Assembly: GCA_030431615.1 (NCBI GenBank)
Contig: JAUIID010000019.1
Location: forward strand, 1-41,656
Direction of reading: 5' to 3'
Length of the DNA stretch: 41,656 bases
Origin: Alphaproteobacteria bacterium
GTDB lineage: Bacteria; Pseudomonadota; Alphaproteobacteria; Geminicoccales; Geminicoccaceae
Positions 1,628-4,052 of this stretch are shown piece by piece (position 1 is the stretch's first letter; each line of letters opens with the position of its first letter). The position numbers were made by a program, and so were the translations under genes. The notes beneath the pieces were generated by a model. The model searched no databases, was not told where the DNA came from, and saw only the letters and a program-made list of their open reading frames with translations.

Positions 1628-3088
1628 ATGCCCCCCAGCTTTCAGATGATCCCGCCCCGCGCACAACCGGCCGCACCGATCGCGTCGCCGAAGCTCTCAA
1701 GGCCAACGCGGCTGCTCATCACGACCGCGCTCTCCCTCTCACTCTGGTACGGCCTGGTCCAGGGCACTGCCCTCGGCTATGCCCAGCTCCGCGACCTGCT
1801 GGATGCGCCCGCGGAAGCGGCGCCGGGCCAGGCCTCGCGCGCGCCGGCACCAGCCCGATCCCCGGCAACCCGAGCCGCGCGCCCGGATGCCGATGCACTT
1901 CGTCAGGAGTACATCCGAAGGCTGAACGCCATCGACCCCGTCGTCACAGCCACCGTGCTCGCCCCCGATGCCGCAGCCAGCCGGGGCGATGCGCCGTCCG
2001 GGGGCGCCGTCCCGGGCAGTGTCGGAAGGCCCGCCGAAGCAATGCCGGCGCCGGCCGTCGACACGGAAGGTGACGCGGAGGGCGGCACGACGCGCGACAT
2101 CGTGCTCGGCATGCTGCAGGAGTTCGGCCTGGTCTCGAGCCGGTCCGGCGGGTCGCTGTCGGACAACCAGCTGGACGGCATTGTCGGTGGCCAGGCCGCA
2201 CCGGACGGGCTGGCCGCCGCTTCGGGCGCCGCCACCGAGGACGAGCCGGATCCGCAGCTCGACGCCCTCAACCGCGTGCTGGTGGAGGGAGGCGGCCTTC
2301 TGCTGCCGCCCTGGACGGTCGAGCTGCAGCCGGAAGGCCGCTACTCCTACAAGGGCGCCAATGGCCTGCTGATCACGCAGCAGAATGGCCAGAACAGCGT
2401 GATGGCGCACAGTGCCGACATCACGAAATACGAGGCAGCCATCACCGGACGCATGGGCCTGCCGTGGCACAGCCAGGTCGAGCTGCGCGTACCCTATACT
2501 CATGTCAGCGAGGAATCGTCGGTCGGCGCCAGCAACTCGGACAGCTCCAGCTCGCATGGACTGGGCGACATCGAGGTGGGTCTGTCGCACCAGTTGCTGC
2601 GCGAGAGCGGCTGGATCCCCGACATGATCGGCGAGATCCGCTATCGCGCCCCGACCGGCGACGACAATTTCGGCAATGACGCGCTGCCGGTCGGCTCCGG
2701 CTTCCATGGCGTCACCGGCCGCGTCACCTTCGTCAAGTCGCTCGATCCCGTGGTTTTCCTTGGCAGCGCCGGCTATACGGCGAACTTCGAGGACACCAAG
2801 GAGGGCTTCAAGATCGACCCTGGCGACAGCCTCGAGCTCGGGATCAATGCGATCCTCGCTGCCGGGCCGCGGGTGTCGCTGCGCACCGGGTTCGGCCTCG
2901 CCTTCACCAGCGAGGCCAAGGTCGACGGCGACAAGGTCAGCGGCTCGGACAGGACGGAGGGTGTGCTCAATGTCGGCGGCGCGGTCGTCCTGCCCGGCAA
3001 GAACCTGCTCGATCTCGGGGTGGGCGTTGGTGTCACCGAAGATGCCCCCGATGTCGCCGTTCGTTTGGCATTGACCCACCGCTTCTGA
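1628..3088 (+). CDS. Outer-membrane beta-barrel with long N-terminal extension and internal double-glycine motif (FapF-like)
   Basis: 486 residues. A hydrophobic segment at about 29-50 acts as signal or anchor. It is followed by a low-complexity Ala/Pro/Gly region and short helical stretches (LRQEYIRRLNAID; IVLGMLQEFGLV). LSDNQLDGIVGG at 177-188 is a third copy of the leader motif found in the two small proteins. From about residue 223 to the end there are amphipathic strands ending in ...ALTHRF with a terminal Phe, the usual outer-membrane barrel signature, similar to the Phenol_MetA_deg barrel family. About 264 residues would suit a 12-stranded barrel. FapF of Pseudomonas likewise has an N-terminal helical plug before its barrel and exports amyloid subunits. 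I infer an export pore processed by the upstream peptidase. Confidence 0.8.
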   Translation: MPPSFQMIPPRAQPAAPIASPKLSRPTRLLITTALSLSLWYGLVQGTALGYAQLRDLLDAPAEAAPGQASRAPAPARSPATRAARPDADALRQEYIRRLNAIDPVVTATVLAPDAAASRGDAPSGGAVPGSVGRPAEAMPAPAVDTEGDAEGGTTRDIVLGMLQEFGLVSSRSGGSLSDNQLDGIVGGQAAPDGLAAASGAATEDEPDPQLDALNRVLVEGGGLLLPPWTVELQPEGRYSYKGANGLLITQQNGQNSVMAHSADITKYEAAITGRMGLPWHSQVELRVPYTHVSEESSVGASNSDSSSSHGLGDIEVGLSHQLLRESGWIPDMIGEIRYRAPTGDDNFGNDALPVGSGFHGVTGRVTFVKSLDPVVFLGSAGYTANFEDTKEGFKIDPGDSLELGINAILAAGPRVSLRTGFGLAFTSEAKVDGDKVSGSDRTEGVLNVGGAVVLPGKNLLDLGVGVGVTEDAPDVAVRLALTHRF

Positions 3089-3182: not shown

Positions 3183-4052
3183 ATGGCTCTTGATATCTTA
3201 TCCCAGCTCTTGCGACAGACGACGCGAACGAAGGATCGCTTCAATCGCGACCGTTTTCGCAATCTCGTGCACTATATATGCTGGGTCTGCGACAACCCGC
3301 GTACTCTGGGAGTCAAGCGGCTCGGGCGGGTGTTGTGGTACAGTGAGCGCAACGTCTACCTGGAAACCGGACGCTGGCTGAGTGGCGCCACCTATTTGCG
3401 CCAGCAGGGCGGCCCCCACCCGCGGCCACTGGAGCCGATGCTGCAGGAGCTGGAGGCCGGTGGTGCGATTGCCCGTCGCGTCGCCGACCGAAGCGACGAT
3501 TTCGACCTCCTGTTCGCGGTTCGGCGACCCGATCTCTCGCAGTTCAGGCCCGAAGAGATCAGCATCGTCGAGGCGGTGATCAGGGTGGTCTGCCTCGACG
3601 CGCGGGGCGCGGTCGCCCATCAGGCGGCGCATGACCAGGTCTGGCAGATCGCCAGGATCGGCGAGCCCCTGCCTTACTACACGGTGTTTGCCGGACGACC
3701 CGGTGACCTGCTGCCCGCCGATATCGACTGGGCGATGCGCACCATCCGGTCGCCGGCGAAGGACGAAACGGTGGACGCCTTCCACGAACTGGCGGAGCGG
3801 GCGAGCCCGAAGGTCGCGGACTGCCTGAAGCTGCAAGCGATCGAGGGCGTCCTCTGGCATCTCAATCACGATCCGACCATCGGCGTGTCCCTGCCCGTCA
3901 ACGATGCCTCCTGGTTCATCTACAAGCAGGCCGAGCACCAGCGGCTGCTGGTGCCGGAAGTGGCCGTCGTCTATCGCTTCGATGTGGAAGAGCTGCTGCT
4001 CGAGTCGTTGCGCATCGGCAGTGTCGACGACGTCGACGAAGATGATCTCTAG
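3183..4052 (+). CDS. Panacea (SocA-like antitoxin) domain protein with possible ParE-like C-terminal domain
   Basis: 289 residues. Residues about 25-178 match the Panacea/SocA pattern: a helical start, LGRVLWYSERNVYLETG followed by LSGATYLRQQGGPHP, and later WQIARIGEPLPYYTVF. Panacea domains are known as antitoxin or chaperone-like parts of toxin-antitoxin pairs and as ClpXP adaptors. The rest (about 195-277) runs FHELAERASPKVADCLKLQ, then NHDPTIGVSLP and VAVVYRFDVEELLLESLRI, which resembles the ParE/RelE toxin fold layout. That second assignment is only an inference. No separate partner toxin gene is adjacent. The 94-base gap before the gene is AT-rich and may hold its own promoter. The acidic tail is DDVDEDDL. 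Confidence 0.62.
   Translation: MALDILSQLLRQTTRTKDRFNRDRFRNLVHYICWVCDNPRTLGVKRLGRVLWYSERNVYLETGRWLSGATYLRQQGGPHPRPLEPMLQELEAGGAIARRVADRSDDFDLLFAVRRPDLSQFRPEEISIVEAVIRVVCLDARGAVAHQAAHDQVWQIARIGEPLPYYTVFAGRPGDLLPADIDWAMRTIRSPAKDETVDAFHELAERASPKVADCLKLQAIEGVLWHLNHDPTIGVSLPVNDASWFIYKQAEHQRLLVPEVAVVYRFDVEELLLESLRIGSVDDVDEDDL

Follow-up and report, generated by a model that had tools for sequence, protein, structure and literature searches.

Our main finding is that the outer-membrane barrel protein of the window (the whole stretch of 41,656 nucleotides analysed, which is an entire contig) carries a C39-type leader, LSDNQLDGIVGG, far from its N terminus; such leaders otherwise lie directly behind the signal peptide of secreted proteins encoded beside periplasmic C39 peptidases. 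The motif spans residues 177-188 of a 486-residue ORF (nucleotides 2156-2191, forward strand). A sequence-only reading of this DNA had placed it within 2155-2193 and likened it to the leaders of two small proteins encoded upstream, LDEAALGDVAGG and LNDEALGEVTGG; all three are present as described, and the embedded motif is stronger than that reading stated. On the basis of sequence, a structural model and analogy with the FapF pore of Pseudomonas, we lean slightly towards an explanation in which the neighbouring C39 peptidase cuts the pore after G188 and this cut shuts it.

The operon starts at position 44 of the window, with all genes on the forward strand. It opens with two small secreted proteins, one of 122 residues (44-412), in which a signal peptide is followed by the leader LDEAALGDVAGG (nucleotides 116-151), and one of 148 residues (509-955) with the leader LNDEALGEVTGG (596-631) in the same position. 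The C39 peptidase (217 residues, 952-1605), the barrel protein (1628-3088) and a gene with a weak SocA/Panacea match (3183-4052) come next. A 59% identical copy of the latter gene lies 3' of the barrel gene in one other locus, L057 (3380-4330), and none was detected in any of the other fetched loci searched. The start of the operon recurs with 88-96% nucleotide identity at G000:C149, 10800-12588 (L025); this copy includes a third leader protein (LDDGALGDVAGG), its C39 gene is interrupted by the contig end, and it is either a tandem copy or a strain variant. Genes for FapA, FapB, FapC and FapE were not found at the window operon, and neither small protein gave a match to the Fap models of NCBIfam at E values up to 1. 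As the NCBIfam scores of the other members also lie below the cut-offs, a Fap operon in the strict sense is ruled out, although the operon is a FapD/FapF-like secretion system.

The peptidase has a signal-peptide-like N terminus and matches Pfam Peptidase_C39 at 7.8e-12. Its best named match is the NCBIfam model FilB (4.8e-33; 114.7 bits, under the cut-off of 475 bits), and it matches FapD at 2.8e-26 (92.2 bits, under the equivalog cut-off of 330 bits). Gln52, Cys58, His144 and Asp160 are invariant among 32 aligned sequences, and PDB 6mpz, a double-glycine protease, is matched at 3.5e-5. We therefore assign it to the FapD/FilB type of C39 peptidases: like FapD, it is a Sec-exported C39 peptidase (signal peptide judged by eye) that keeps the catalytic Cys, His and Asp and adjoins a barrel gene, but it differs in its low score against the FapD model.

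The barrel protein is a distant FapF-type pore. NCBIfam FapF matches it at 2.9e-20 (72.5 bits, below the equivalog cut-off of 700 bits) and FilC does so weakly (4.6e-6), while Pfam recognises the Phenol_MetA_deg/FapF barrel fold (1.2e-13). A profile of 22 barrels, the window one included, finds the FapF crystal structure 5o65 at 5.7e-67, and FapF chains are the best PDB matches of the AlphaFold model (target-normalised TM 0.77-0.85; 23-25% identity in the structural alignment). A signal-peptide-like segment, RPTRLLITTALSLSLWYGLVQGTALGYA (residues ~25-52, nucleotides 1700-1783), was recognised by eye and is 68% identical in L057 over residues 25-55. Behind it, the model has a short helix (residues 86-102, 1883-1933) that aligns with the coiled coils of other barrels and represents a shortened one; no long heptad region was visible by eye. 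This helix continues into RLNAID at the place where FapF has R-h-x-x-h-E, reported as its trimerisation motif (PMC6173795).

The leader comes next, and is followed by a plug helix of high pLDDT (residues 209-220, 2252-2287), by GGLLLPP, of which GGLLL aligns with the plug region of FapF, and by the beta-barrel domain (residues 231-486, 2318-3085), delimited from Pfam, the AlphaFold model and the fold match. The plug helix thus precedes the first barrel strand, as in FapF, and the sequence-only reading was mistaken in setting the motif directly before the barrel, since the helix (~209-220) intervenes. Barrel domain and plug helix are predicted with high confidence, and residues 169-202, motif included, have a pLDDT under 50 and are predicted to be disordered. 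In the model, then, the leader between short helix and plug appears accessible to a periplasmic peptidase, and a cut at the predicted site, after G188, would leave 20 residues ahead of the plug helix.

The motif was scored with a 12-position profile of 157 leaders, from which those of L057, of the window operon and of the latter's near-copy L025 had been left out. The 157 are the members that entered the profile from a collection of 164 distinct 12-mers around related C39 genes; they were selected by a pattern and a crude signal-peptide filter, and the profile thus mirrors those selection criteria. The embedded motif scores 25.1, within the range of the training leaders (18.8 to 39.1), with no other segment of the barrel exceeding -10.8. 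Not one of 20,000 shuffles of the barrel reached 25.1 (the best scored 21.5 in one set and 22.7 in another), although for low-complexity linkers such shuffling is a weak null. The fetched loci contain 1,091 other ORFs of at least 250 residues; 22 of these score at least 15, and all 22 have a signal-peptide-like stretch directly before the motif, which makes them leader proteins themselves. On the strength of the shuffles and the ORFs we reject a chance match; we also reject a plain fusion between a leader protein and the barrel, because no signal peptide stands immediately before the embedded motif. The motif conforms to the C39 leader type (LxxxxLDxVxGG/AG) as represented by independent leaders, and fits this wider type better than do the leaders of its own operon (6.4 for the first small protein and 12.4 for the second), in which Gly replaces the Asp after the second Leu.

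This leader type is widespread, with a consensus near LxxxQMDxVTAG or its GG variant. Of the 70 C39 loci that span 8 kb or more, 65 contain at least one leader scoring 15 or more. The count is in part circular, many of these loci having served to train the profile; L025 was scored as lacking a leader, its visible leaders falling under the cut of 15, and the 179 C39 loci surveyed include overlapping copies of the same places. The survey also brought to light many small Sec-exported proteins (198 in 71 loci), a set apparently without a name, in which LxxxQMDxVTAG directly follows the signal peptide; they often stand several in a row beside C39/barrel genes (for example L058, L062, L064, L066, L089 and L119). 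Scans of 30 chosen leader proteins against Pfam and NCBIfam gave no convincing family match. In the titles and abstract openings of open-licence PMC articles, no description of the leader type, or of a leader within a barrel, was found, and the literal motif strings were unmatched. Since the combination of signal peptide and LxxxQMDxVTAG occurs near C39/barrel genes in many Pseudomonadota, it offers a handle for predicting processed substrates.

A scan of genome contigs yielded one close relative, L057 (SKNJ01000271.1), a 4.4-kb contig of a MAG labelled Thioalkalivibrio. Its gene order is that of the window: three leader proteins, C39 (67% identical), barrel (60%) and the Panacea-like gene. 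Of everything found, the Geminicoccaceae window is by far the nearest match to the L057 operon, whose presence in a Thioalkalivibrio bin reflects either horizontal transfer or misbinning. At the place of the motif the L057 barrel has LSEIELDGIVGG, with 9 of 12 residues identical; the changes are confined to leader positions 3-5, which vary among leaders too, and three of the nine kept residues use a different codon. Identity in the flanks is 24% (residues 113-150), 35% (151-176) and 44% (189-206), and the plug region is 93% identical (28 of 30 residues over 207-236). The sequence-only reading had called for an alignment of orthologues, expecting the motif to be kept while its flanks vary, and had named as contrary evidence a loss of the motif in close relatives that keep the peptidase. 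In the single orthologue L057 the peptidase and the motif are both there, the latter amid diverged flanks, a pattern that is suggestive of selection on the motif.

Among barrels at large, the embedded leader is a rare, lineage-specific addition at a recurring place. We surveyed ORFs of at least 250 residues matching any of six barrel queries at 1e-4, counted as distinct by their last 150 residues. The motif is absent from 154 of 157 such barrels (120 of the 123 that share a locus with a C39 gene), which rules it out as a general feature of FapF-like barrels and implies that C39 systems work without an embedded leader. Only three barrels score above 10: that of the window, L057 (17.6; reached by 2 of 20,000 shuffles) and L134 (17.2; reached by 1 of 20,000). 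The FapF-like barrel L134, from a Chromatiaceae MAG, has a long coiled coil; its LDEAALERVSAG comes after this coil, 40 residues before the plug. A quick tree of 122 barrel domains forces two origins of the embedded leader; judging by these sequences, L134 acquired its leader separately, in the same topological position, with the coiled coil on one side and the plug on the other.

Other Geminicoccaceae barrels have no leader and, in most cases, an ordinary coiled coil. The same genome holds a second C39 gene and FapF-like barrel (G000:C150:57333-59132; L026), again with an ordinary coiled coil and without embedded leader. When 385 genomes of the class were searched with the N-terminal half of the barrel, five weak matches turned up outside the genome itself, the strongest being a truncated 321-residue ORF in which only query residues 202-258 were matched and the best profile score was 6.7. 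Plasmids searched with the barrel gave 13 records at 23.9-30.0% identity, and phages searched with the C39 gave two Acinetobacter records. In CAKLQF020000038.1 (L249), a record labelled as an Acinetobacter phage, a C39/barrel locus is accompanied by pabB and his genes, and the sequence resembles host chromosome more than phage.

We propose that the two small proteins, exported by Sec, would be trimmed at their leaders by the periplasmic C39 peptidase and then exit through the barrel. Within the pore, a copy of this leader sits in the flexible stretch linking the short periplasmic coiled coil to the plug helix, and C39 would cut there too, after G188. This would remove the periplasmic gating region (residues ~53-188) and leave plug and barrel (189-486), which would correspond to the FapF-beta fragment that was crystallised; going by FapF, the plug would then be locked in and secretion would end. 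That the C39 peptidase cleaves the barrel seems to us reasonably probable, and this suggestion of the sequence-only reading is indirectly backed by the leader-type match, the conservation in L057, the disordered site and the second origin in L134; as a general rule for such barrels it does not hold, given the rarity of the motif. The released part would be smaller than the ~188 residues first supposed, about 136, assuming signal-peptide removal near residue 52, a position judged by eye. It is expected to stay in the periplasm, and nothing was found in favour of its being a third secreted product.

The direction of the effect depends on FapF. According to the published account, FapF-beta (FapF residues 83 to 406) inserts into the membrane and cannot support secretion, FapF without its periplasmic domain is the plugged form, and full-length trimers appear open compared with FapF-beta in single-channel recordings (PMC5557850). 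Cutting is expected to shut the window pore because the equivalent FapF truncation is the closed, secretion-dead form, and by this analogy closing, should cleavage occur, is quite likely. The sequence-only reading had considered the reverse, an opening of the pore; on that view the N-terminal extension would keep the plug in place until it is cut off, and its loss would set secretion going. The extension is indeed longer than, and unlike, those of the other aligned barrels, so that the gating logic could be reversed, but FapF sets the opposite precedent, and the plug helix, being C-terminal to the cut, would stay with the barrel. We therefore regard opening as improbable.

The leader might also serve for binding rather than for cutting, parking C39 beside the pore and bringing the trimming of cargo to the channel mouth, with the barrel left whole or cut only slowly. 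Its position in a periplasmic linker would suit such docking, as would the conservation of the helix part of the leader together with GG, and C39-like domains of type 1 systems are reported to act without cutting (PMC5557850). Pure docking, however, would need no cleavable GG, so that the exact GG in both close orthologues leans towards cleavage, the more so as two of the three small-protein leaders of L057 end in AG; L134, for its part, keeps AG. Docking appears unlikely. The rarity of the motif (3 of 157 barrels) could instead suggest a disused relic, a leader-like stretch brought in by recombination with a neighbouring small-protein gene, or mere coincidence. Against this stand the shuffles, the survival of the motif in L057, a barrel 60% identical overall in which the flanks have diverged and some kept residues use other codons, the two independent origins at the same place, and the missing signal peptide that a simple fusion predicts directly before the motif; we consider it very improbable.

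If cleavage does close the pore, the embedded leader might act as an off-switch through substrate competition, which would time and meter secretion; we put this forward as a speculation of low probability. Abundant leader-bearing cargo in the periplasm would occupy C39 and the pore would stay whole; once cargo is exhausted, C39 would cut the pore leader, the gating region would be lost, the plug would seat and the outer membrane would be resealed. Were this true, a single protease would mature the cargo, meter it and shut the gate.

The double-glycine leaders of C39-containing ABC exporters, of the bacteriocin type, follow the pattern L....L..[VI].GG. This pattern and the C39 fold (PDB 6mpz match) are common to the window system, but its peptidase is periplasmic and comes without an ABC transporter, and its leaders follow a Sec signal peptide, with one internal to the pore. 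In the Acinetobacter Fil locus (FilA, FilB and FilC in NCBIfam naming), FilB is the best match of the C39 peptidase and FilC a weak match of the barrel; in the Fil record the sequence MDDAALSAATGQ of the upstream protein is no more than leader-like (profile score -7.3), and the barrel is without the motif (best score -1.5).

The closest comparison is with Pseudomonas FapF (PDB 5o65, 5o67 and 5o68; PMC5557850, PMC6173795), which has the same type of barrel, likewise with a plug helix ahead of the first strand, a gene adjoining that of a periplasmic C39 peptidase and a coiled-coil-like helix upstream. In the window barrel the long coiled coil is reduced to a short helix, and the linker holds a recognisable leader, where FapF is described as having only GG/GA motifs (PMC5557850). 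The same source calls the target of FapD unclear, reports that its Cys38 is required (C38A abolishes secretion), and finds no canonical C39 sequences in Fap proteins, noting GG/GA motifs in FapE and ahead of the start of the FapF crystal construct. From such motifs in the disordered linker, Rouse et al. (2017) raised as a possibility that FapD cleaves FapF, a cut that would close the system (PMC5557850). FapD cleavage of FapF has thus been proposed before, and what the window barrel adds is a recognisable leader inside the pore. The window barrel fits that proposal better than FapF itself, because its site is such a leader, and a pore with a full, statistically solid copy of a cargo leader makes the idea directly testable with one protein pair.
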